Below, piece after piece: positions 863 through 64,000 of a stretch of 64,000 bases of DNA (position 1 is its first letter; each line of letters begins with the position of its first letter). The notes below the pieces were generated by a model. The model did no database searches. It was not told the origin of the DNA and was given only the letters and a program-made list of their open reading frames with translations. The stretch is from Nitzschia sp. pyKryTriq1 (lineage: Eukaryota; Bacillariophyta; Bacillariophyceae; Bacillariales; Bacillariaceae): NCBI GenBank assembly GCA_956465555.1, contig OY101120.1:2722001-2786000 (forward strand), written 5' to 3'. A program made the position numbers and the translations under genes.

Positions 863-2089
863 ATGAAGTTGTTGTTTCGCGTCGTTTCCGCGTTCCTTCT
901 CGTCGCCGGCTTTGCGTCTGCCGGCACGGGAGGGATTCCTGCCTATGATTGTAAAATCTGCCCAGCGGGCTACGAAGTAACCAATTTCGAAGGCGAATTG
1001 GTCCTTCCAGGCCAGCCAACCCGTACATGCCAAGATCTATTGGATGCCAATGAGGCTGGAATGATCGATGAGATTAGCTGCAATCTGTTGACCATGCTGA
1101 CCCCCGAATTCTGCGGGTGTGAGCTGGGTGATATTGTGACTGTGGCAAAAAGTGCTGGAACGTTTAATGTTTTGGTCCTTGCGTTGGAAGCCGCTAATTT
1201 GGTGGAAGCTTTGAGCGAGCCAATGGGACCCTACACTGTCTTTGCGCCCTCGGACTCGGCCTTTGAAGCACTCCCTGAAGGAGTCGTCGACGCCTTGTTG
1301 ATTCCCGAGAACTCTGAGTGGTTGACTCAAGTGCTTCTGTACCACGTTGTTCCAGGGGCTGTCCTGTCGACCGATCTGGAGGATGGTATGACAGTGGAGA
1401 CGCTGGAGGGAAGCTCTGTGAACATTTCAATCTCCACTGAAACGTCTTCCGTCATGATCGACCAAGCGATGGTCGAAGCGGCCGATATCATGGCATCCAA
1501 CGGTATCATTCATGCTGTGAATGATGTCTTGTTGCCCCCAAGCTTTTTGGAAAGTCTTCCAAGCATCCTTGCCAATTTGACTGTCGTTGATGATCCAGTT
1601 GTGGAGGAAATCGTTCCTACTACACGAGGAGCGGCTCCAGTGCTATCCGATATCCCGACGACTCTGGAAGATTTTGGAACGTTCGAGTACCTTCTTGCCG
1701 CGTTGAATGCGACCGGCCTCACTGGGGCATTGTCCGAACCCGAAGGACCCTACACCGTCTTTGCCCCACTCGATTCCGCCTTTGAAGCCTTTCCTCCAGG
1801 CATTGTCAGTCAGTTGTTGACACCCCCCTTCGCTCCTATCTTATCAAGTATCCTACTGTACCATGTCGTAGAAGGAACTTATGCTGCGGGAGACTTGTTT
1901 GATGGCATGAATGTGACGACACTGGGTGGGGAGACGGTCTTGATTTCGATCAATGAGGAGAGCGGATCAGTAAGTGCGAACGAGGCCCAAGTCGTGACGG
2001 CTGACATTTTCGCCTCGAACGGTATCATCCACGCGATTGCCGGCGTGTTGTTGCCACCGAGTTTCGATTTGGCTGATTTGGGTATGTAA
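863..2089 (+). CDS. Secreted protein with two FAS1 (fasciclin) domains
   Basis: This 408-residue protein starts with a clear signal peptide (about residues 1-20, hydrophobic core then ASA/G). A Cys-containing head follows (about 28-90, with CKIC near the start and CGC at its end), a layout seen in front of FAS1 domains in diatoms. Two FAS1 repeats follow at about 92-228 and 265-402. Each has the family signatures: GPYTVFAPSDSAFEALP in the first and GPYTVFAPLDSAFEAFP in the second, then LLYHVV and SNGIIHAV/I near the end. FAS1 domains mediate adhesion at the cell surface or in extracellular matrix, so a secreted or wall-associated adhesive role is likely. The start is the first ATG of the frame, in an A-rich context. 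No GPI or membrane anchor is obvious at the C terminus. Domain calls rest on motif recognition. Confidence 0.88.
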   Translation: MKLLFRVVSAFLLVAGFASAGTGGIPAYDCKICPAGYEVTNFEGELVLPGQPTRTCQDLLDANEAGMIDEISCNLLTMLTPEFCGCELGDIVTVAKSAGTFNVLVLALEAANLVEALSEPMGPYTVFAPSDSAFEALPEGVVDALLIPENSEWLTQVLLYHVVPGAVLSTDLEDGMTVETLEGSSVNISISTETSSVMIDQAMVEAADIMASNGIIHAVNDVLLPPSFLESLPSILANLTVVDDPVVEEIVPTTRGAAPVLSDIPTTLEDFGTFEYLLAALNATGLTGALSEPEGPYTVFAPLDSAFEAFPPGIVSQLLTPPFAPILSSILLYHVVEGTYAAGDLFDGMNVTTLGGETVLISINEESGSVSANEAQVVTADIFASNGIIHAIAGVLLPPSFDLADLGM

Positions 2090-2689
2090 ACGTATGTAAA
2101 CAGAAAACTTTGAGCAAAGACCGTGATGATCACCACCATCGTCCTCGTCTGATAATGGTGGACGACGACGACTTCTTGTTGCTTGAGCAGGACTTGATTC
2201 AGCCCATCATGCTTGTTTGTACTACTACTCCTACATACTAGAAGTAACATATCATAACTTAATGAGATGTTGTATATTGCGTATGACACACTTCGACTCT
2301 AGAGTAGTGTATTGCTCTTGCTAGAGTAGAGTCATAGAAGACAACGTTCTACTGTACTAGTAGCATAGCGCTCGCTTCTGCTATCGCCTACTAACGGACC
2401 AATTCGACTTCTCAGATGGAATCTGGAATCTGCACAAGCATTGCTCCATTCAAGCTTCATTGGTCTCCACGTGTTGACACGGCGTAAAGACTTGAGAATA
2501 TCGCACGCGGCCACAAGGCGAAACGCCGGAGAATCCATTTCTATTGTCGACATGATGCATGTGCGTTTTGTTGTTGTGTCTGTCGTCATTATCTAAAATA
2601 CATACACCTACTGTACGAATAATCATTATACTACAGCTTTGACTATTGTCGTCTTTGTATACAAATACACAATAATACATACAGCCACG
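2090..2689. other. Intergenic, no feature seen
   Basis: About 600 bases between two plus-strand genes. I see no supported gene, RNA or repeat. It presumably holds the 3' end of the FAS1 gene and the promoter of the dioxygenase gene. Confidence 0.5.
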
Positions 2690-4150
2690 ATGATGTACCG
2701 GTATGCAACACGTGTGGCGTTATTGTACTTCTTATGGCTCTTGCCGTCAAGCACCGCGTTTTTTCTTATTCCACAACAAGGTGATCACCACTACCAGCAG
2801 ACAACCACACTATCACGTGCACCACCAGTATGTGTTGCTGCTGCTGCTGCTGCTTCAGCATCTCCTCCTATAGTATTGCCACGACGGGTTCTACTGGTCC
2901 AGCCCCTTGGTATGATTAGCGCCAAAGATTTACTCTACCAAGACCAGCAAGATGCCAATGCTCGTCGCGCAGCGGTGGAGGAGACCTTATTGTACCAAAA
3001 AGAAGAAGGGAAGATTCCAAATCTTGAAGCTCCCAAAATCAAGGCGGCACGCGTTGCCTCGGGCAGCGGATTTGGTGGTGGTAGTGGTGGAGCATCGTCA
3101 GCATCCAATAAGAAGCAGCAAAGCACCAACAAGAAGAAAAGCGCTGGTACTAGTGGTAGTACTACTTCTTCTAAACCAGCACAAGCACCAGCACAAACCA
3201 AGAAGAATAACAACAAAACAAGGAGCAGTAGTCCATTGGCCATCGAGCAGGCCAAGATTGTGACTCGGGATGGAGTATTACGTATTGACAAGGCACTATC
3301 ACCCGCTCTGGCCGATGCGGTCCGAGAACACGTTCTTGAAGAGCAGAGATTAGCCGAAGAGGCAACGTCGAAGAATGCTCATGTATCGAGAGAGTACTAC
3401 GGTGTCGAGAATCGGCGAAAGAAACGTTGCGACTTGCTACTCAGTCTAGTGGCACCAGAGGAGCAAGAGCAGGAGGAAAATAATGCTGCTGCTATCCAGA
3501 GGGAAAACGTTATGCCAAAAGTCTTGAACGAGCTGCTCGGTCAAGACGGAACGCTTCGTCTCATTTACGAGGAGCTCGTCACCACGGAAGGAGAGTTTTA
3601 CGAACTTGCCGCCGTCATTACGGACCCAGGAAGCGATCGCCAGCAGATCCATCCCGATTTACCTTTTCGTCAAGAGGCACCTCTATACGTCATATTCTTG
3701 GCGCTTCAGGATGTTACGGAAAGCATGGGACCGACGACTTTTCTGCTGGGTTCTCAATCGTACGAACAGCGTGTCAAATTTGATGATCTTTCACAGCGGG
3801 ACGAACTACTGGCCACCGCCAACAGTCGGCTAGCATTACTGAAAAAGGGCGATGCCGTATTGTTTGACGCACGGCTCTTGCATTGTGGAAATGCCAACGA
3901 TGAACTAAATGGAGCCACGCGTGCGATGCTAAACTTTTCCTTCCGAAATCCCAAGGAAACGGGAAATCTTGGATATTGCGGTTCAATGCGGCCAGGATAC
4001 GTAGGCGCCATGACTTTGGGAGACGTCACCGATGCATTACTCCAATATGATATGGGCGATGAAGATCCGTTTGCTAGATATGGGAACGGACTCGTCGTCG
4101 TCGACGCTACCGAAGCGAGGACCACCACGGCTGGTGGTGGTGAATACTAG
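2690..4150 (+). CDS. Phytanoyl-CoA dioxygenase-like 2OG-Fe(II) oxygenase, probably plastid-targeted
   Basis: The frame is open from 2639, but the first true ATG pair is at 2690, giving 486 residues. The N terminus is a signal peptide (ALLYFLWLLPSSTA) followed at once by FF, which resembles the diatom ASAFAP cleavage motif for import into the complex plastid. A low-complexity linker (Ala, Gly, Ser, Lys) covers about residues 60-170. The catalytic fold follows: HPD at H321-P-D323 and H398 (LLHCGNAN) fit the iron-binding HxD...H triad, and R411, 13 residues later, fits the 2-oxoglutarate-binding arginine. GDAVLFD before H398 is typical of the PhyH family. It should hydroxylate or oxidise a small molecule or lipid in the plastid, but the substrate cannot be told from sequence. 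No intron is needed. Confidence 0.78.
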   Translation: MMYRYATRVALLYFLWLLPSSTAFFLIPQQGDHHYQQTTTLSRAPPVCVAAAAAASASPPIVLPRRVLLVQPLGMISAKDLLYQDQQDANARRAAVEETLLYQKEEGKIPNLEAPKIKAARVASGSGFGGGSGGASSASNKKQQSTNKKKSAGTSGSTTSSKPAQAPAQTKKNNNKTRSSSPLAIEQAKIVTRDGVLRIDKALSPALADAVREHVLEEQRLAEEATSKNAHVSREYYGVENRRKKRCDLLLSLVAPEEQEQEENNAAAIQRENVMPKVLNELLGQDGTLRLIYEELVTTEGEFYELAAVITDPGSDRQQIHPDLPFRQEAPLYVIFLALQDVTESMGPTTFLLGSQSYEQRVKFDDLSQRDELLATANSRLALLKKGDAVLFDARLLHCGNANDELNGATRAMLNFSFRNPKETGNLGYCGSMRPGYVGAMTLGDVTDALLQYDMGDEDPFARYGNGLVVVDATEARTTTAGGGEY

Positions 4151-4802
4151 TAGAAGAAGGAATAAAAGGACAACGAGTGCAGCATGTGAATAATGGCACA
4201 ATCACAGCCATAGCGGCTAGCAGTAGTAGTAGTAGTAGTAGTGGCCGCATCATGATAGCAAGGTTGCCCACACTACTGCTGCGGTTCTTGATATGTTGTC
4301 TATTCTTCTGCTCGTTTAGTGCTGCTCGGCGGTAGCAACAAGAAGCCGCCAGAGCAGTGCTACTCTATTTGCTACCGGTAGAGCTAAGTCAGACGATATT
4401 TACTCATGCTGTGCTCTAACGGTAGTAGGCCGCCACTGCTCTACCAGTAGATCACTACCGGTACCGGTATAGGGAGGTCGGAAGATTGACGATTGTTCCT
4501 TGCAATGACTGTCTGTACCGTTACAGTGAGTACAGGTACGAGCTTTCGCAGAGCCAGGGCCGGGAACCAGTACCGGTAGGTGCCAATACAAATAGCAGGC
4601 CACTCAACAACTCTTTACTCTTTGTCTACGTACTGTCATCGTCGTTGCGAGGAGCGGAATATTGCTGGAGGTTCGCGGAGGGAGGTGATGAATGGTCGAA
4701 GCTCGAAGAGGTCGAACAGGACCTGTAGTGAACGAATGAATGAATGAATGAACCGCTTGTTACAGCGCAGCGGTATCGCTTCGACGCGGCAACCGGCCAG
4801 AC

Positions 4803-4818
4803 CGGGGTATGAACCCCG
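4803..4818 (+). repeat. Single copy of the CGGGGTATGAACCCCG motif
   Basis: The 16-base motif is identical to the left arm of the inverted pair at 4970-5009, about 150 bases downstream. A degenerate reverse form (TCATACCCCCC) follows near 4838. It may be the outer arm of a small transposon or a protein-binding site. Confidence 0.6.
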
Positions 4819-4969
4819 TTTTGAGGTTCGACCGTTATCATACCCCCCAACTAACTATTTCAAAAAATTGGCTTTACGTCCCTCGAGAGACCATCCATCA
4901 AGTAGTAACTCAGAAGAAGTAATATTTTAGTAGAGACGATTTTACAAGTTTATGCTTTAGTAACATTCA

Positions 4970-5009
4970 CGGGGTATGAACCCCGGCCCCCGACGGGGTT
5001 CATACCCCG
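4970..5009. repeat. Perfect 16-base inverted repeat with 8-base spacer
   Basis: The left arm CGGGGTATGAACCCCG (4970-4985) and right arm CGGGGTTCATACCCCG (4994-5009) are perfect reverse complements. The GC-rich spacer is GCCCCCGA. The structure could form a strong hairpin, and each arm is itself nearly palindromic (GGGG...CCCC). It lies about 110 bases upstream of the small acidic ORF at 5119. It may be a cruciform, a transposon sub-terminal repeat or a binding site. Confidence 0.8.
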
Positions 5010-5118
5010 GTTTCACAGCTTGTGTGCGCCCATTTTTATGGCGCGGCAATCAAAATTCACGCACTGCCTCCGGTCTTTCGTCTTTCAATCACAACACCAC
5101 AACAATAATCCATCTATC

Positions 5119-5718
5119 ATGTTATCCGACAATGACAACAGCAGTGATGATGGATCAAACTTCAATACGCCTGATCAGGGCGAGGCAATCGAAGTAGAGG
5201 AAGTGACCCACCCAGCAAGGGTCCTCCTTGAGCTACAAGGTAGACGTACAGCAGGAACGGCCGCTACTCGTACTACTCGCAGCCGCACCGCCACCGCCAC
5301 CAGTACTGCCGCTACTGGATCTCGCGTAGCCAGTACCGGTACTGGTACCGCAACGCCACCAGCAGCAGAAGAGAATATTTCGTTTATTTTCAGGTCAACT
5401 GAGCCCTCCAATGGAGTAGCATCCCTTGCTGCCGAGGAAAGGAACAAAGTGTGGGACGGCGAGAGTGACTCGGATGATTCAGAGTTCGCCGATATGCTGA
5501 ACTGTATCGGCGATGATGACGATCACGAAGAAGAGAATAGAGCCGCAGTACTAGAAGAGCCAGTTATCGTCTCACCTCGAGTACTGAAGATTCCCACGCC
5601 CCCTTCCAACTGGAAGCCCGACAAAGTAAAAACTGATCGCGACGAAGTGCCCTTCGACAGGGTCGAGAGTAGAGTAGAGCTTGCTCGTACCACTGGTGCA
5701 GAGAGCTTACTACTCTAG
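5119..5718 (+). CDS. Hypothetical acidic protein, possible N-terminal remnant of a piggyBac-like transposase
   Basis: The frame is open from 5020 but the first ATG is at 5119, giving 199 residues. It has an acidic Ser/Asp head, a Thr/Ala/Arg-rich low-complexity region (about 40-80) and an acidic stretch (about 110-140). A basic segment with PPSNWKPDKVKTDR follows (about residues 160-175). The acidic head followed by a W-K-P and D-x-V-P-F segment reminds me of the region just before the catalytic domain in diatom piggyBac-derived transposases. The catalytic domain itself is absent, because the frame ends in TAG/CTA-rich repeats. Inverted repeats lie just upstream. This identity is weak, and a host gene of unknown function or a chance frame is also possible. 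Confidence 0.35.
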   Translation: MLSDNDNSSDDGSNFNTPDQGEAIEVEEVTHPARVLLELQGRRTAGTAATRTTRSRTATATSTAATGSRVASTGTGTATPPAAEENISFIFRSTEPSNGVASLAAEERNKVWDGESDSDDSEFADMLNCIGDDDDHEEENRAAVLEEPVIVSPRVLKIPTPPSNWKPDKVKTDRDEVPFDRVESRVELARTTGAESLLL

Positions 5719-6541
5719 TATCTACTAGTACAACTACTACTACTACTCTAGAGTACTGTACTACTACTGTACTACTACTCTACTCTAGTACTGTAGAGCT
5801 AGCTCCTACTGCAAAAGGACCGTTCAGGTACTGGTACTCTCTACGGTACTTGTAGTAGAGTAGATGATAGAGACAACACGGCAACTACCGTACCGGGATA
5901 GGAAAACCTTGGAAATTGTGTCAACAATCATTGTAGTCGAAGATACGAATCACAGTAGTCTAAAACATGTACAGGTCTACGTGTTTTGGTACTTATGGTC
6001 TGAATCGGGGGTTCTCACCCCGGTTGCGGGCGCCGTGACGAAGCGATACTTGTACTGTACTGTACCGGTAGTACTACAGTACACGTACCGGCACGTCGTT
6101 ACTCCCGGGTTACAACCCCATCCGTCTGTACGGTACGAACGTACGTTCGGTATTCGTACCAGGTACAGGGAATTCGTACAGTACCGGTACCTACCCTACG
6201 TACCGGTACTTGTACCGGTACCGGTAGACGTAGCGCGTACATCTCGCGCCATTGTCGACGATCCGAGAGAACGGACGGAGGGAACTCCGAACCTCTTCGG
6301 TAGCGTACCACTGTATGAGTACCGTACCAGTACCATGCAAATTGTACACGGTACATACGAGAATTTATTCCGGCGCGGCCAGTCCATGGTCGGGGTCCAA
6401 CAACACAACCCCGCCGCCCTGCTGCATCCCAAGCGACGATCGACGACTGATCGCGCACGATGATGCCATCATTGTTCATTCATTCATTCAACCACCGGAT
6501 ATTCTATCTTCTCAATATCAATACGAATCAACATCAGCACC
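5719..6541. other. Histone upstream region packed with CTA/TAG repeats and GTAC/CCGGTA words
   Basis: 5719-5800 is almost pure CTA/ACT/TAG trinucleotide. 5990-6360 is very dense in GTAC, GGTACC and ACCGGT palindromes, for example ACCGGTACCGGTAG near 6218-6228. Two GGGTTxxxACCCC-like motifs occur near 6006 and 6105. A long reading frame crosses the region but is only a translation of the repeats. The last 100 bases presumably hold the H2A promoter. Confidence 0.6.
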
Positions 6542-7208
6542 ATGTCTGGAAAAGGTAAGCAACATCAACATCAACATTGACAATGCATGCATGATGTGAC
6601 TACCGATGTCTTTGCGTGCTTGCCACACAGACAGTGTTCCGCTCTGCCTCCAATGCCAATACTGTACCTGGTACTTGTACTGTGAATGAATGCTTCGTCC
6701 GTTATTTCGATCGATCCTTGCCCTTGCCCCCGCCATGAATGCAGACGTCTCACCTTCGTCACACCACAATGCTTCCATTCACTCACTCACTCACTCACTC
6801 ACTATCGATATTATTTCAGGAAAAGGAAAGGGAGGTCGCGGAGACAAAAAGGCGGCCACATCGTCGAGCTCCAAGGCCGGCTTGCAATTCCCCGTCGGTC
6901 GTATCGGCCGCTACTTGCGTCAAGGCAAGTACGCTACCCGCATGGGTGCTGGAGCTCCCGTCTACCTGGCGGCCGTCCTCGAGTACCTCTGCGCCGAAAT
7001 TCTGGAACTGGCCGGAAACGCGGCCCGCGACAACAAGAAATCTCGTATCATTCCCCGTCACATCACCTTGGCGGTCAAGAATGACGAAGAATTGAACAAG
7101 CTCTTGGGCAATGTCACGATCGCCAACGGAGGTGTCTTGCCCAATATCCATGCCGTCTTGTTGCCCAAGAAGAGCAAGCTTGGAGGTAAGGCCTCGCAAG
7201 ACTTTTAG
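6542..7208 (+). CDS. Histone H2A.X, two exons
   Basis: Exon 1 (6542-6554) encodes MSGK plus one base. A phase 1 intron (6555-6819, GTAAGC...TTTCAG) follows, and exon 2 (6820-7208) restores [15 protein letters not shown] and the rest, 133 residues in total. The histone fold is complete: [15 protein letters not shown], the [13 protein letters not shown] helix, the acidic patch in [14 protein letters not shown], and the [10 protein letters not shown] docking segment. The protein ends in SQDF, matching the SQ(E/D)-hydrophobic motif phosphorylated after DNA double-strand breaks, so it is an H2A.X-type histone and not H2A.Z. The intron, interrupting the gene after four codons plus one base, suggests replication-independent expression. 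No partner histone gene lies next to it. Confidence 0.94.
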
Positions 7209-7841
7209 AGTGCTTGCTCTATCTGCTTGCCACGTCCATACTGTACTCCCGCGCGCAAGACGTACGGGGCCTGTGGCATGTCCTTTCGGCAACGAAGAAG
7301 ATTGATTACTGCTGTCGTCTGAACATGCGGCCCAAGCCACGAACGTGCGCTCTGTCTGTAAAAACACCATTTCATAGTACGAGTAGTCTACTAGAGATTA
7401 GATGATCATACTGCATTCTTTTCGTTTCGTTTGGTATCGTATATATATATTCCTCCTTGGTAGCCTCCACGACGACGATGATTCCTCGCCCCGGACATGC
7501 TTTATAGTCTATTTGAGAGTACTAGCTACTAAAGCTAGAGTAAAAGTACGAGTAGGTCTCTACAGTGGTACCGGTACGAGCAATGTACCGTCCTCATCCC
7601 CGTCCAATACGGTACTTGTACTGTACCCACTCCTCCATCATACTGTATGCATCGAGTTGCCACAATGGATAGAGGATGCCCAAACTGATGTTCCTTCGTC
7701 AGGAATTTTGAAGAATTCTTGCTATGATTATACTATCACTATCAGTTTTGAAATACCCACAAAGATGGTGTCATGACTGAGTCTACTAGCAGAAGCAGGA
7801 GCAGGACCAGAAGTAGAGTTCGTTTCACTACACTAGTAGTA
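7209..7841. other. Intergenic between convergent genes
   Basis: This holds the 3' flanks of the plus-strand H2A.X gene and the minus-strand acidic protein gene. It has scattered TAG/CTA and GTAC words and an AT run near 7440-7450. No supported gene. Confidence 0.5.
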
Positions 7842-17812: not shown

Positions 17813-18116
17813 TTCGCCTGTTAGCATATGTTTAATTAATAAAAAGGAAAAATTAATAAGAACGAAACATGGCATTTGATCTCTTATTTCTTTATTCCGT
17901 TATTATTATTCAATTCATCCGTCCTTTAGCCTGCGCAATTCATCCGAGTTTCGGCAGCACATGAACTTCGCCTATTTCGCGATCATCTTGTGATTTGCAA
18001 AAGTTCCGGCGTGCTTCGCATCCCATAAAATTTGTTCAGGCGCTTCGCGACCTTTGATGCTTTTGCAACAAACTACTCCGAAAGGACGAAGAATAGAATA
18101 TCATACTAACACCACC

Positions 18117-19292
18117 ATGAAGCAAGACTACAACCACAACAGCCTCTCATCCTTCTTCCAGGACGACTTTGTGAGAGTTCTAGACGGTCTGAACAAAGCC
18201 GAGGATGTGCTCCGAACTGATTGTCATGATGAATCGTTCGATCTTTATGATTATCAAGGAGAGGAGCATCCTCTCTTTGATGATTCAGAGCCCTCGTTCC
18301 CCTTGAGCTTGGTGGAGCCGCCTTCCATCGGTCCGAATGGCATTGACTTTGTGAGAGTTCTAGACGTTCTGAACAAAGCCGAGGATGTGCTCCGAACTGA
18401 TTATCTTGAAGAATCGTTCGATCTTTATGATCATCAAGAAGAGGAGCATCCTCTCTTTGATGATTCAGAGCCCTCGTTCCTCTTGAGCTTGGTGGAGCCA
18501 ACTCCCATCGGTCCGAATGGCATCGAGCATGTTGTCTCAAGCAGCAACAGCATTAGCAACAGCATGAACATGATGAATATGCTCAGCTGGATGCCCTCCT
18601 CCTTCACGACTTATTGTTCCAATCAAGCACATGACAACACCAACAACAAGAAGCGCGACTTTGAGAAGACGCATTCGTCCAGCATGATGATGATCCGACC
18701 CTCCAAACGTCAATGCAAGTCGTCATCATCATCATCATCAGCAGCAGATGACCATCTTTTGAATGTTGACGACTCATTCACATCGAACACTATTAGTACT
18801 TGTAGTAGTACTACTAGTACTAACCGATTTCGCCATTACCAAGTCGATCAATGGATAGAACGATTCGACGAATTGATCGAGTTCAAGAATCAATACGGAC
18901 ACTGCTTGGTACCGCACAGCTTTCCCGAGAACAACCAGCTCGCTCAATGGGTCAAGCGTCAACGATACCAGTACAAGCTCAAGACGGCGGGTAGTCATTC
19001 GACCCTGACGGATGAGCGTCAAGTCGAACTGGAAGAGCTTGGCTTTGTCTGGGACAGTCACAAAGCAGCGTGGTCGGAACGTTTCCAGCAGTTGAAAGAG
19101 TTTCGATTGCGATATGGACATACGAATGTATCGTGCAACTATGAAACAGATCGACCACTGGCCGTTTGGGTCAAGTGCCAACGTCGTCAAATGAAGTTGT
19201 TTCGGAAGGGACAGAAATCAACCATGAACCAAGAACGATTTCTTGCTATGGATCAACTCGGTTTCCACTGGAATCCTCGAAATCTCGTCTAG
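18117..19292 (+). CDS. Helicase-associated (HA) domain protein, copy 1
   Basis: The ATG at 18117 is chosen because it sits in a good context (CACCACCATGA), giving 391 residues; an in-frame ATG at 18057 is the alternative. Residues about 17-136 consist of a 60-residue acidic unit (DFVRVLD...SIGPNGI) present twice in tandem. A Ser/Asn linker follows, then two HA domains: RFDELIEFKNQYGHCLVP to LGFVWDSHKAAW, and RFQQLKEFRLRYGHTNV to LGFHWNP. WVKRQRYQYK and WVKCQRRQMKLF are the hallmark segments. The HA domain is a small helical fold, known from bacterial and algal proteins and thought to bind nucleic acid. Diatoms encode many such proteins. There is no helicase domain. A nuclear regulatory role is likely but unproven. 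Confidence 0.85.
   Translation: MKQDYNHNSLSSFFQDDFVRVLDGLNKAEDVLRTDCHDESFDLYDYQGEEHPLFDDSEPSFPLSLVEPPSIGPNGIDFVRVLDVLNKAEDVLRTDYLEESFDLYDHQEEEHPLFDDSEPSFLLSLVEPTPIGPNGIEHVVSSSNSISNSMNMMNMLSWMPSSFTTYCSNQAHDNTNNKKRDFEKTHSSSMMMIRPSKRQCKSSSSSSSAADDHLLNVDDSFTSNTISTCSSTTSTNRFRHYQVDQWIERFDELIEFKNQYGHCLVPHSFPENNQLAQWVKRQRYQYKLKTAGSHSTLTDERQVELEELGFVWDSHKAAWSERFQQLKEFRLRYGHTNVSCNYETDRPLAVWVKCQRRQMKLFRKGQKSTMNQERFLAMDQLGFHWNPRNLV
18165..18524 (+). repeat. Two 180-base tandem units inside a coding region
   Basis: Units start at 18165 and 18345 with GACTTTGTGAGAGTTCTAGA. They are almost identical over 180 bases (60 codons), so the duplication is in frame and probably recent. It doubles an acidic segment of the HA protein. 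Confidence 0.9.
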
Positions 19293-23941: not shown

Positions 23942-25364
23942 TCATGTAGTTTGCGCTTGTTCTTGTCGCTGGGACCGACCAGACAAGGACTTGCCCAAGA
24001 GATCTTTGTACGATAAGGGGTTGCTGGATCTGGAATTTTTTTTCCAAGCACTCGGATCAAAACAAAAGCTCAGCTTGGCAAGTTTGGCAACGCGGTCCCA
24101 TGTCATGGAACTTAGTTGCTGATTCGGTCCGTCAGCACAGAAGAGCTTGAATTGCCGACGTTCTTGGGAGCGCGTAGTAGAAAAGGAAAGAATACAACAA
24201 CGGTCAGTATGACGAGTCATCAGTCGACGTTTGCTGCTGATGGGATGGCGGCAGGCAGCAGGGACGCAGCAGCTCAAAACAATAAGAGGGGTACTTACGA
24301 CATTTCACCCATGTTGCGAGCTGTGGATTCTCAGAATACTTGGGTGGCACGTCGGCATGACCCTTTTGATGGCGAAATTCATTGACCTCGTTCAATCGCT
24401 CCTCCCAAAATGCGGAATGACTTTCCCATACAAAGCCCACCTCGTTGAGCTTTTCCAGACGATCCGGCGTGAGATTGGAGGATACACCACGTCCTCCTTT
24501 GAGGAGCTTGTATTGATATCGTTGGCGCTTGACCCATTGACTCAGGGCAGGATTCTGTGGCCAGCGAGTGGGGACCATCACATGTCCGAATTCTTTTCGA
24601 AAGTCTTGGAGTTCTTTGAATCGAAGCATCCACACACCACTACTGGAAGATCCTCCTCCTGCTCGAGTGGGACTGGTGCTGCTGTGTGGTTGTACTCGAG
24701 AAGAAGATTCGGACAGGGACGAGGACGACGGAAAGTCGGTTCGATTGCCACGAGGACTAGTAATAGAGCTAGTACCAGAAACAGTCACTGTTGTTGCTGC
24801 CTCATCGTGACAATCTTCCGCTACGACGAAGCCTTGTAGTTGTTGAAGTTCACAGTACCACTGATGGACGTCGTGAGGCGACAGTTCTTGGCTTTCTTGT
24901 TGAATGGGAGGGCTGATGCTGATGCCAATATGGTCATTGAAACAGTAACCTTGTCTTGCTTCTTCATCTGGTAGTACGTTTGCCGCATGTGCTGATCGAG
25001 CAGTAGATGTAATAGTATTGGTGGATACTCTATTACCCATCATAATACTACTAATATGGTCGTTGGTGTTCGTCAAGAACGTCCGTATCATGTCGTGATC
25101 GTCCTCGTGGCTCACTACTTCTTCTTGCCGCCGTCCTCCTCCTTGCTGGGCAAGAATACTGCGTCCAGCCACAGCGGCGCGGCTCGTGAAACTGCTGCGG
25201 CCATCTTCAGGAGAGGGATACGATCCCCACATCATACTTGTTCTCGTCAAAGGCTCGTTGTCCTCCTCTTTCTGGCATATTTCTTTTTCTTCTTCTCTCA
25301 ACGGCCGGGGCTCCAGGGACGGAATAAGAGCCTCGTTCCATACAGGCTCGTCCATATTATTCAT
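23942..25364 (-). CDS. HA-domain protein, copy 2, two exons
   Basis: Exon 1 (25364-24299) encodes a Ser-rich, disordered region then one full HA domain (RFKELQDFRKEFGHVMVP to VGFVWESHSAFW). The second HA domain stops abruptly after WVKC. A donor GTAAGT begins at 24298, and an acceptor (CCCAAG) ends at 24163. Exon 2 (24162-23942) begins AACGTCGGCAATTC. Splicing (phase 1, 136-base intron) gives WVKCQRRQFKLF, exactly the segment of the paralog at 18117 (WVKCQRRQMKLF), and a tail ending in a W-like HA terminus (FDPSAW). The product is 428 residues. Reading through the intron gives an unrelated 31-residue tail. It is transcribed away from the DHxAW gene at 27067 and is likely a nucleic acid-binding regulator. 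Confidence 0.85.
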
Positions 25365-59617: not shown

Positions 59618-60435
59618 CGCGTATTTTATACTCGTATATAATACTCGTATACTTGTAGACTCTCAATACTGCGGTCCTGTAATCGCACTGTCTGCCTGTG
59701 TTTGCTTCTACAGTACTCTTGTAATAAAATAAAATATATTCTTATGATGAATGCGGCGGAAGCATCAGCAATCAGCAGCAAAACCGGAAAAGAAAAGAGA
59801 AAACACAAAGCAGCCTCAGCCGTACAGCATAATATCGCGACGCGATCCAGAGATTAAAAAAAAATCCATTCAGTACACGTACCGCGTACACAACCGGTAC
59901 TGTACCGGCCTTGCCTTTTACGTAGTACATACCGGTAGCTCTGGTACTGAAAAATACGCGCGCTCGCTTTTGGGCCAATCCGAAGCTCCTGATCGTCCGC
60001 ACGCAACACGCGCGACTGTACAGTCAGTACGACTCCTCGGACCGAATTTGTCTTCTTCCACGCAGCGCAGGCAGGCCGGCCGCATACGTCATTCGCCATT
60101 CATCATCATTCATTCCCATATTATTAATAGCGCCAGCCGCCATCACAAAAACCACACCGCCAATAAAGAGCAAGTGTACCATACACTAATAAGTGAAAAG
60201 AGAGAGAAATAAAGATGAGCGAGACAGAACAACGCACATACCGGTATATATGGACCAACAACAAACAAAACACATCAGCAGGTATGGTATGCTCTACGAA
60301 CGCCGACTCTAGAGATTAGTAGTAGTGCATCGATATCTCTAAAAAAGGAAGAACGAGGACGCCATATCATCATCATCGTACACACAAGTACTATTACAAA
60401 GGAGGAGTAGTCTGCAGTCTGCAGGACGAGTGCCA
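59618..60435. other. Divergent intergenic region
   Basis: It lies between the starts of the minus-strand EGF-like gene and the plus-strand fusion gene. GTACCGG words occur around 59876-59940, and an ATAATACTCGTATA-type motif near 59632-59650. No supported gene. Confidence 0.5.
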
Positions 60436-63400
60436 ATGATGTCTCCTCAGAAGAGCCCCACCGATGAGCAGCACAACATCACGGCCACCCCGACGACGAG
60501 CCATCGCAACAACAACATGTCGGCGCAAGGGAACAACCCCAAAGACGTTGTTTCTTCTTCTAGTTCTTCTTCTTCTTCTTTTTCGCCAGTGGGAGTCGTC
60601 GATCCGGTGGTACGAGCCATGAACACCGTGATGTATGGGTTGCTGGTACACTTTGGAACTCTGTGGACGATTCTTCATGGCGATGATGTGAACCATCATC
60701 AGGATAATAGTACTATTATTATTACTAATTCGCTGCAAGAAGAACAAGAAGAACAAGAAGAACAATGGTCTCAGCAGCAGTCCTCCTCCTCCTCCTCCTC
60801 CTTCTGGTGCTCCTCCTGCTGCTGCTGCTACTGGCTCCAGATCCTGTTGTTGCTTCACGGATATTGGGTGTACCTTCAACACGCCAATGTTCTAGCGAAT
60901 CCATTCTGCCAACGTTTGGATCGACAATACGGAATTGCGTTACTCAAATCGAATCAACATTGGGCGATTGCTGGAACCTTGTCGGCCTATTGGTGTCGTG
61001 AAACACTGGGAATGTTTTTGTGTTTGCCATTTCTCTTAGCAGCAACGCCCGGCAAAGAAGGTAGCAGCAGCAGCAGCAGCAGCACTACCCATTATTGGAT
61101 TTTATATTCTCTCATTTATCACACCATCAAGAGTCGAGGAGTACGACAAGATGCCCTTCGTCGATATTCACCGTCCTATGGGATTATGAGAGTCGTCATT
61201 GACAAGTTTTATCTACACACCACACCAGAAACGATTTTGAGTATGGTTCGAATATCACTTCAAGGCCTCGACACTTGGATTCATTATTCCATCCTTCGTG
61301 ATCTACTTTTAACAACAATACAACATCAAGCTTCCATGACGACGAGCCTACCACTACTAGTAGTAGGACTACCACGGAACAACAACGACAACAACAACAA
61401 CTACAACAGTTTGATACTGTTGTTGTGGATGCTGCATGCCGTCTTTGGTCTTTGGGTCGTTCATGCCGCACTGAATCAGTATTTTCGATGCAGTACGGCT
61501 AGCGTCATGGTCCAAGCGTGGTATTCGCTGACGGCACCACGTCGCCAACGACAAGAAGAACAAGAACAAGAACACCAGTCGAAAAGGACGACAAGCACCG
61601 TGAATGATGGTACTACTAATACTCTATTGACGGACGATCTAAATCCTGGAACATCCAGTCCTTCAAAAGAGACTGATGAACACGAAAAAGTCGATAATGA
61701 TAATGATAATAATGACGATGATGACGAGACGGAAGTGGAAAGTGTCTCCAGTACAGAAACGGAAGATAATGATGATTCCAGCAACAAGAACAACAATCAC
61801 GATTCAGCTGCTGCTGCTGATTCTGGGGCGAATGACGACTTGTTCATTGTTCGGAAACTCCTTCGACCCGGTCGAGTGCCAGAGGAACTCCAAGGGCGTC
61901 AAGGGGCGGTCACAGATGGAGTCGATACGGCCGTACGCATTGAGACGGTGCTGGCCATTTTGGCGTCCACATTCCTCTTGGGCTTGGGAACCGTACCCTT
62001 TCGAGCCTTGACGATCATGACGACGACGACAACAACCATGTCGTTGGAGAGAACCTGCTCTCCAGATTGGACTCAGCAGTACTTGGCGATGATTTCCTTT
62101 GCATGGTGGTTATCGGGCTTGCTTTATGGAATTTGGGCCCTCTTCTTGAAAACGTCGACCAGCTCGACCACTTCGAAACGTCAAGAAGCAAACGTTTCCT
62201 CGATGGATGCTTCTTTGTCGTCTACACGTTCTCGACAACGAACCATGGTGAATATTGTGGATCTCATGCTTTTGATCGCAACAGCAACCCAAGTCTTCGC
62301 AAAGGAAGATGGCAGAATCTGTTGGTATCTTGCTGTAGGAGTCACGGTCAAATCCTATCTACAGGCATCTCGAATTCCACGCCCTTACCTCGTCTGGACC
62401 AGTATGCGAGTCTCGGAGTTTGTTGGAAAGCTGATACTCCTTCGGAGGCTACTTCAATTTCTCGAAACCTCCAGTTCGAACGAAATGGCATGGATCGAAT
62501 TGACGATTGCTCTGGCTTGGGCTATCTGGGTGGTCTCAACGCCGATTCCTACCCCTTGTGAGCTCGAGTCTCTAACTGCAAGCTGTACGACTACTGGTAG
62601 CGACAACCACTCTGTCGCCGACGTTGTCTTTTTGGGTCATCCTGCCGAGTTAATCGACTGTTGGGCCCTGTGGCTACTTCCCTACTCACTCCACGAACGA
62701 TGGCAGGGCCCCTGGTGGGCCATTCCGCTCTGGCCTCTGCACTATCTCGTGGGGTGGTATGTCTGCAACTATCGTCGAAAACTCTTTGGGGACAAGGCGT
62801 CCTTCTTTTGTTGCGACAATGTCTCTTACGACGGCATTCAAATGCAGACATGGACGGCTTCTCACTTTGGTCGGCATTTTGTCACCCATCCCTTTCAAGT
62901 CAAACAAAATATCGAGGCTGCCGCCCGACATGCCGAACGCACAGGAGTCAAGGTGCTATGCTTGGGGGCGTTGAACAAGGCCGAAAGCATTAACTCTGGT
63001 GGGGTCGGAGTTGTCAAAGCTCTGGACACCGAGTCTAAACTCTCGGTCATTCACGGTAATCATTTGACGGCTGCGGCCGTAGGGGAGACTACGCTCCAGT
63101 GCTTTGGAGAAAAGGCCAAGGTGTTCTTGACGGGCGCCAGTTCCAAGGTTGGATGGGCAGTTGCCCAAGCCTTGAGAGATCGCCATGGCTTTGAAGTCTT
63201 GTGCCATAGTACCGACCCAGGCCGACGAAAGTTTTTCCAAGAACAGGGCTTTGCAGCTGCTTCGAAGCTATCGGAAGGTACTCATTTTAGCAAGCTTTGG
63301 ATCGTTGGAAAGTACGATCTCGCGGTTCCCCGACTGATTCCTCAGAACGCTACTGCCGTGGTGTTTTCTGTCCCACATGCTTTGGGATCACGGCCCGATG

Positions 63401-64000
63401 TGAGAGTGGTGGAGGCGGGAACGTTGCACATGGATCTATCAAGGCTCGATCGTCCCCGTCAATTCACCAACAAACTCCGGGTTCAAGAGATCTTTGCATG
63501 CCACGCAGCGAGTTGTGTCGCGGCGTTTCGATTGAAACGAGACGGGCTCGACCGCATCGTGGAAACCGGTCCTGTCGATCCCAACACCATGGATACCTGG
63601 TTGGAGGATGCGAAACAGCTTGGATTTCAAGTACCTCGAGTATCGCCCATTCCGTCCACTACGATCAGGAGGAGTCACGAACCACCCATCATCATTGTAG
63701 GTGCTGGCCCTTCGGGATTGGCTGTTGCCGCCTCACTCGCTCGTCAAAATATCCCAAGCCTCATTCTCGAGTCCCAAGAAGATCCCACTCAGTTTGGATC
63801 CTGGGAGCATCATTTCAGTGGTTTGGAAGTCACTTCTCAAAAGAAATGGTGTCAACTGCCTGGCTTTGGCATTTCCGACTTTCCTGGGGACTACATTTCC
63901 GCTCAAGACTATCGTCGCTACCTCCATTTGTATGCGGCTCGATTTGGACTAGAAATTCGTCGCGGTGTCCAAGTGGTTTCTATTGAAAAAGGACACGACG
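60436..64000 (+). CDS. CER1/WAX2-like domain fused to an FMO-like flavoprotein (3' partial)
   Basis: From ATG 60436 one frame is open to the right edge (64000), at least 1,188 codons and no stop. Residues 1-800 are a multi-pass membrane region: several hydrophobic stretches (for example WLQILLLLHGYWV near 137-149, MFLCLPFLLAA near 188-198) split by an acidic linker (about 410-470). I see no clustered His boxes of the fatty acid hydroxylase type. About 800-1070 match the WAX2/CER1/CER3 C-terminal domain: IQMQTWTASHFGRHF, GVKVLCLGALNKAESINSGG and VFLTGASSKVGWAVAQAL. About 1085 on is an FAD-binding FMO-like start: IIIVGAGPSGLAVAASLARQ (GxGxxG at 1089-1094), then FGSWEHHFSGLEVTSQKK. In plants CER1/CER3 make very-long-chain alkanes or aldehydes, and FMOs oxidise substrates with NADPH and FAD. 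A coupled lipid-oxidation enzyme at the ER is likely. Confidence 0.85.
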   Translation, partial: MMSPQKSPTDEQHNITATPTTSHRNNNMSAQGNNPKDVVSSSSSSSSSFSPVGVVDPVVRAMNTVMYGLLVHFGTLWTILHGDDVNHHQDNSTIIITNSLQEEQEEQEEQWSQQQSSSSSSSFWCSSCCCCYWLQILLLLHGYWVYLQHANVLANPFCQRLDRQYGIALLKSNQHWAIAGTLSAYWCRETLGMFLCLPFLLAATPGKEGSSSSSSSTTHYWILYSLIYHTIKSRGVRQDALRRYSPSYGIMRVVIDKFYLHTTPETILSMVRISLQGLDTWIHYSILRDLLLTTIQHQASMTTSLPLLVVGLPRNNNDNNNNYNSLILLLWMLHAVFGLWVVHAALNQYFRCSTASVMVQAWYSLTAPRRQRQEEQEQEHQSKRTTSTVNDGTTNTLLTDDLNPGTSSPSKETDEHEKVDNDNDNNDDDDETEVESVSSTETEDNDDSSNKNNNHDSAAAADSGANDDLFIVRKLLRPGRVPEELQGRQGAVTDGVDTAVRIETVLAILASTFLLGLGTVPFRALTIMTTTTTTMSLERTCSPDWTQQYLAMISFAWWLSGLLYGIWALFLKTSTSSTTSKRQEANVSSMDASLSSTRSRQRTMVNIVDLMLLIATATQVFAKEDGRICWYLAVGVTVKSYLQASRIPRPYLVWTSMRVSEFVGKLILLRRLLQFLETSSSNEMAWIELTIALAWAIWVVSTPIPTPCELESLTASCTTTGSDNHSVADVVFLGHPAELIDCWALWLLPYSLHERWQGPWWAIPLWPLHYLVGWYVCNYRRKLFGDKASFFCCDNVSYDGIQMQTWTASHFGRHFVTHPFQVKQNIEAAARHAERTGVKVLCLGALNKAESINSGGVGVVKALDTESKLSVIHGNHLTAAAVGETTLQCFGEKAKVFLTGASSKVGWAVAQALRDRHGFEVLCHSTDPGRRKFFQEQGFAAASKLSEGTHFSKLWIVGKYDLAVPRLIPQNATAVVFSVPHALGSRPDVRVVEAGTLHMDLSRLDRPRQFTNKLRVQEIFACHAASCVAAFRLKRDGLDRIVETGPVDPNTMDTWLEDAKQLGFQVPRVSPIPSTTIRRSHEPPIIIVGAGPSGLAVAASLARQNIPSLILESQEDPTQFGSWEHHFSGLEVTSQKKWCQLPGFGISDFPGDYISAQDYRRYLHLYAARFGLEIRRGVQVVSIEKGHD

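Follow-up and report, generated by a model that had tools for sequence, protein, structure and literature searches.

The analysed window is a stretch of 64,000 nucleotides from the diatom Nitzschia sp. pyKryTriq1 (GenBank assembly GCA_956465555.1, contig OY101120.1; C6:2722001–2786000 in the source genome of 40.65 Mb and 20 contigs). At its right end lies a gene whose product joins, in one chain, two membrane regions, a domain related to the C-terminal half of the CER1/CER3 proteins, and a flavin monooxygenase (FMO) domain (Table 1). The gene is a single open frame of 1,520 codons. It runs from the first ATG at 60436, which is preceded by an in-frame stop at 60340, to a TAG, and needs 998 bases beyond the window for completion. 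The part inside the window, 60436..63999, comprises 1,188 codons without a stop. Sequence was read 5 kb past the window end, and the 10-kb stretch around the gene, in which the gene occupies positions 1436–5998, is free of any N. The original prediction of one uninterrupted frame that joins these domains and runs off the window was thus borne out, and the gene fusion is confirmed as read in the assembled sequence.

Table 1 Features of the CER–FMO fusion gene, with positions counted from the first nucleotide of the window.
Feature	Position	Strand	Residues and remarks
Whole coding frame	60436..64000	+	1–1188 in window; stop 64998; 1,520 aa in total
N-terminal membrane region, without known relative	60613..61635	+	~60–400; hydrophobic peaks 122–140 and 326–344
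Acidic low-complexity linker	61633..61875	+	~400–480; by composition
Second membrane region	61876..62619	+	481–728; occupies the position of the CER1 di-iron hydroxylase
CER1/CER3 C-terminal half, acyl-ACP reductase/CER3-type reductase-like	62620..63633	+	729–1066
Rossmann glycine motif TGASSKVG, putative NADPH site	63130..63153	+	899–906; aligned with intact CER
Cys1022 in FACHA	63499..63501	+	aligned with Cys580 of intact CER and C294 of Synechococcus acyl-ACP reductase
FMO domain, 106 residues in window	63682..64000	+	1083–1188; GAGPSG at 1089; continues beyond the window to 64995

Among 50 first-order Markov sequences, each 64 kb long, the longest stop-free run arising by chance was 295 codons, and the open frame of 1,188 codons is therefore not a chance product. 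A codon-usage score was derived from 15 further long frames in the window, which are themselves not verified genes. Its margins in favour of this frame were small at about residues 101–300 and 651–850. These weak parts of the coding score, together with the single genome copy that was read and the lack of a convincing relative for residues 1–725, would fit two adjacent genes read as one, with a sequence slip or an unspliced intron hiding a stop codon in the stretch from residue 1066 to 1083, or an internal start that leaves out residues 1–728. We nevertheless consider this very improbable. The frame stays open for all 1,520 codons, it scores top in 28 of 29 segments of 100 codons (with a score below zero in three of these 28; the exception is the segment from residue 251), and the end of the CER homology is linked in frame to the start of the FMO domain by ~16 residues.

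The CER-type domain was compared with an intact CER gene on contig C5 of the same genome. Residues 729–1066 matched the C-terminal half of this protein with a blastp E of 6e-28 (31% over 353 columns), and the homology starts at residue 291 of the intact CER, directly past its hydroxylase domain (PF04116 at 133–267). The predicted WAX2/CER-type domain is hence present, although it falls below the Pfam cut-off (see below). By homology over the C-terminal half, the fusion protein would belong with PF12076.

Models described in PMC11020225 argue that CER3 is built like the cyanobacterial acyl-ACP reductase (AAR), with C577 of NoCER3A at the place of the catalytic C294 of AAR; there, a cysteine of the C577 type is given as present in CER3 and not in CER1 proteins. 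Among the seven cysteines of the intact CER from residue 501 on, C580 alone faces a cysteine in the fusion protein, namely Cys1022. A two-sequence profile made from the fusion domain and the intact CER matched Synechococcus AAR from profile position 104 to 351 and chain position 79 to 335 (E 1.3e-4). The same profile aligned TGASSKVG with the glycine motifs of short-chain dehydrogenases/reductases (SDR), and SDR-type chains matched it over 34–80 positions round the glycine motif only (among the best 60 of 118 matches). When the glycine motif was masked, AAR ranked first in the whole PDB set, at a weak E of 0.18, and the alignment placed F292-A293-C294 of AAR opposite F1020-A1021-C1022. The AAR residue numbers in this comparison were counted from the printed alignment start at 283 and were identical in both AAR chains. 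Through this weak alignment, Cys1022 would correspond to the catalytic cysteine of the CER3/AAR type, and the glycine motif is a putative cofactor site for NADPH. The reductase site thus appears to be kept in the fusion protein, and the retained cysteine suggests an aldehyde-making function, as in CER3/AAR, for the fused CER part.

The part of the chain that precedes the CER-type domain gave a different picture. Residues 1–728 produced only chance-level rows in Pfam. At a 19-residue mean hydropathy of at least 1.4, two hydrophobic segments lie N-terminal to the acidic linker, four within residues 496–702, and one each at 730–748 and 1084–1102, the last of which is the FAD-binding strand. Searched against the own genome, residues 1–725 gave the self-match and, in addition, five weak ones with a best E of 7.4e-4. 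All five fall near the acidic linker, within residues 326–519, and we ascribe them to low complexity. The His boxes of the plant alkane-forming enzymes, reported as not seen in the original prediction, are indeed absent: the fusion protein has no HxxHH, as opposed to two in the intact CER of this genome, and residues 481–728 contain a single histidine in total. No row for PF04116 (FA_hydroxylase) was obtained for the fusion protein in the Pfam scans. Judged by the His clusters in PF04116, the protein would not be a member of CER1, the alkane-forming di-iron enzyme. At the level of the sequence, a hidden di-iron hydroxylase in residues 1–728 was rejected for want of any trace: shuffle tests based on local alignment with the first 290 residues of the intact CER gave z values of 0.9 (residues 1–400) and −0.4 (residues 480–728), versus 48.7 when residues 729–1066 were aligned with its other half. 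Sequence comparison thus detects no CER hydroxylase domain in the fusion protein. The earlier suggestion to look for a hydroxylase fold in residues 480–800 could be followed in part, as the sequence comparison was negative and a single-sequence AlphaFold2 model of residues 490–1080 (pLDDT 36.5, pTM 0.25) was too poor for a judgement of the fold, so that a hidden fold may still be present.

The FMO domain spans residues 1083–1520. In addition to the FAD motif listed in Table 1, it contains GFGNSA (NADPH) at 1271 and ATG at 1217 and 1452; this second dinucleotide motif and the C-terminal ATGY (1452) are encoded in the part beyond the window. Both dinucleotide sites of class B enzymes (GxGxxG for FAD and GxGxSx for NADPH) are therefore represented. 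With these two motifs and a match to PF13738 (E 6.6e-17, model positions 1–185 of 305), the predicted FAD-binding FMO-like domain is well recognisable. The ArsO family model (NF040505) matched with an E of 5.4e-20, which is far below its cut-off, and the best solved relatives were 4A9W/4C5O over about 100 residues. Among 72,556 plasmid records, 58 matched the FMO domain, all 58 below 60% identity and one with at least 80% coverage. Six of these matches were taken into an alignment, in which the bacterial enzymes were 24–28% identical to the FMO domain. Because this alignment reaches the ATGY motif and extends past it, we judge the C-terminal part of the FMO to be present. One histidine of the FMO domain is invariant across the seven aligned sequences.

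Taken together, these data point to a membrane-bound two-step enzyme, in which aldehyde formation of the CER3/AAR type would be followed by oxidation of the aldehyde by the FMO; we put the chance of this reading at somewhat less than even. The CER3/AAR-type domain would bind acyl-CoA or acyl-ACP and form a thioester on Cys1022, which NADPH would reduce to release a fatty aldehyde. This first step is proposed because the reductase residues are conserved. The aldehyde would then be passed within the same chain to the NADPH-reduced FMO, whose C4a-peroxyflavin could attack the carbonyl in a Baeyer-Villiger or luciferase-like manner. The second step is proposed because of the fusion itself and because of the known flavin chemistry on aldehydes: long-chain fatty aldehydes are substrates of bacterial luciferase (PMC8910399), and FMO5 performs Baeyer-Villiger reactions (PMC10237457). 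Expected products would be an acid or a formate ester, the latter leading to a fatty alcohol shortened by one carbon, while a hydrocarbon arising by formyl loss would be less likely. The membrane regions may anchor the enzyme at a lipid surface. What the sequence itself shows is the single frame, the two homologies, the cysteine and nucleotide motifs that are kept, and the lack of a detectable di-iron domain; the two reactions are inferred.

Several observations weigh against this two-step enzyme. On the CER side, the Pfam model CER1-like_C (PF12076) scored 13.7 bits, and no PF12076 row was listed for the fusion protein in other scans. Since this score lies below the cut-off of 28.3, the domain is best described as a divergent relative of CER1-like_C that stands outside the family by Pfam's rule. 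Some SDR chains outscored AAR against the two-sequence profile (among the best 60 of 118 matches), the masked AAR match is not significant on its own, and the CER domain of the fusion, searched alone against PDB chains, gave 11 matches at E 10 with no AAR among them. The AAR model TIGR04058 was matched only by the second exon of the intact CER (E 3.2e-4, far below the cut-off), and was not listed at E 0.001 with a longer piece. On the flavin side, class B FMOs carry the fingerprint FxGxxxHxxx(Y/F), and type I Baeyer-Villiger monooxygenases the fingerprint FxGxxxHxxxW(P/D). The corresponding stretch AKIPFCHTTDL keeps the histidine alone and conforms to neither pattern. Furthermore, ArsO-type enzymes occur among the plasmid relatives of the FMO (in the best 25 of 58), and because of such relatives the FMO fold says little on the substrate.

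These findings lend some weight to the view that the CER-type domain has no catalytic role, serving as a partner or as a scaffold for lipid binding, and that the FMO alone is active, with a substrate that has nothing to do with aldehydes (a lipid, or a sulfur or nitrogen compound). The divergence of the CER domain, its score under the Pfam cut-off, its failure to match AAR alone, and the ArsO-type enzymes among the FMO relatives would all be in line with it. The C-terminal half of CER1 itself may likewise be a scaffold without catalysis: in PMC11020225, the C-terminal cysteine is described as not conserved in plant CER1, and each CER protein may keep one active half. Such a scaffold would not account for the retention of Cys1022 and of TGxxxKxG in a stretch where the six other cysteines of the intact CER were lost, and we regard it as rather unlikely, if worth keeping in mind.

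The intact CER gene, which lies on the plus strand of C5 (local 3384–5341) with one inferred intron of 95 bases, encodes two HxxHH boxes and the cysteine C580. As it thus combines CER1-type His boxes with the CER3-type cysteine, this protein may be an undivided bifunctional CER1/3. Head to head with it and ~1.9 kb apart (C5:1671288–1677340) lies a fatty acid photodecarboxylase homologue on the minus strand (local 5289–7438; its start codon is a guess), recognised by a 140-aa frame with a phmmer E of 4.5e-27 to the solved enzyme and by an STGCD...LQxRF stretch. No frame of at least 120 aa was found between the two, and they could possibly form a shared-promoter pair of hydrocarbon genes.

As both genes are other candidates for hydrocarbon formation, caution is needed with a hydrocarbon reading of the fusion. 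The fusion could be imagined as a one-protein alkane or alkene factory, with the FMO serving as an O2-dependent deformylase of the reductase-derived aldehyde in place of the di-iron centre of CER1. To our knowledge, no flavin aldehyde deformylase that yields alkanes is known, and with the other candidates in the genome we consider this improbable, even though an oxygenase is fused to a putative aldehyde-forming domain, the His boxes are absent and, according to PMC11020225, cyanobacteria pair AAR with a deformylating oxygenase. For the same two reasons, a product of the Baeyer-Villiger type is favoured over a hydrocarbon in the two-step enzyme. The original prediction had read the gene as a lipid-oxidation or hydrocarbon pathway in one protein, with the oxidative chemistry perhaps moved to the FMO. 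Its fusion, its WAX2/CER domain, its missing His boxes and its FMO stood, and the move of the chemistry is plausible; the hydrocarbon pathway itself found no support. The wider claim that a single diatom membrane polypeptide combines acyl-thioester reduction with flavin oxidation to shortened alcohols, formates or hydrocarbons, and thereby replaces the di-iron step of CER1, is in our opinion doubtful at present.

Compared with plant CER3 and the ancestral algal CER1/3 (PF12076), the fusion shares the homologous C-terminal half, including the segment preceding the WAX2 domain, and keeps the cysteine and the glycine motif, as far as the comparison with the intact CER of this genome goes. It differs by scoring under the Pfam cut-off, by having no detectable hydroxylase domain or His boxes, and by its extra membrane regions and FMO. 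With cyanobacterial AAR (TIGR04058; PDB 6JZQ) it shares a profile match that covers almost all of the domain, as well as the alignment of the catalytic cysteine, both weak, whereas AAR is an enzyme on its own that works with a second protein, an aldehyde-deformylating oxygenase. Small bacterial FMOs of the SMFMO/ArsO type (PDB 4A9W, NF040505) are the best PDB and NCBIfam matches and carry the same cofactor motifs, but are stand-alone genes of low identity (the six aligned), and the fingerprint is not fully kept in the fusion. In the bacterial luciferase system, the flavin monooxygenase LuxAB receives its fatty aldehyde from the reductase LuxCDE. As an analogy, this follows a similar logic from reductase to flavin monooxygenase, although the folds are unrelated and the proteins are separate. 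If our proposal is correct, a flavin oxygenase can take the place of a di-iron centre as the partner of the aldehyde-forming CER1/CER3 half. The gene would then be a candidate, open to testing, for lipid-oxidation or hydrocarbon steps still unassigned in diatoms, and nature would provide a template for an aldehyde-processing enzyme made of one chain.

Relatives were sought in viral contigs, bacterial and archaeal contigs, plasmids and the own genome. No relatives were found in the viral contigs (three protein or alignment queries and one DNA pattern) or in the bacterial and archaeal genome contigs (two queries), and this absence says little because the contig collection is bacterial and archaeal and the pattern step insensitive. 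The CER part gave no plasmid match at E 1. In the own genome, the whole protein found itself, the C5 CER gene in two pieces and an FMO on C8 (E 2.2e-4); the FMO part alone found itself and, weakly, the C8 frame (E 1.2e-4) and a match on C7 (E 0.024). The C8 frame, which encodes 773 aa, has a separate FMO-like domain preceded by a long N-terminal extension (C8:1947888–1948361 region, minus strand, local 610–2931); apart from the fusion itself, no further FMO match in the genome reached an E of 1e-3. No report of a CER–FMO fusion was found in the literature titles and abstract openings listed, a coverage that leaves out most subscription journals, and the fusion may well be widespread among diatoms and carry an annotation elsewhere already. 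Among the plasmid records, a methyltransferase gene precedes the FMO gene on the same strand in roseobacter plasmids of Ruegeria sp. YS9 and Pseudosulfitobacter (Skeletonema culture), with one small gene between them in one of the two (L029); the two genes may be a conserved pair.

A neighbourhood shared with lipid genes was considered and rejected: in a Pfam scan of 18 of the 31 window frames of at least 200 aa and one frame just beyond the window, the nearest scanned frames on either side of the gene gave no Pfam family. The gene's own frame is one of the 31, but not one of the 18. A PhyH frame and an aldo/keto reductase frame lie ~50–58 kb from the gene. The PhyH dioxygenase frame (window 2639–4147) follows a fasciclin-domain frame (863–2086), and two 'Helicase associated' (HA) frames stand on opposite strands ~5 kb apart (18054–19289 and 24204–25364). 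Eight silicon transporter frames, the best with 885 bits, are found elsewhere in the genome, as are 72 light-harvesting-protein matches, part of them exons. By themselves, these frames and matches mark the genome as almost certainly that of a diatom, and a comparison of one light-harvesting protein with solved structures gave no finer placement. The light-harvesting matches include two identically scoring pairs ~40 kb apart on C1:4283352–4323732 and C3:3144038–3187064, which suggests a segmental duplication or an unmerged haplotype.

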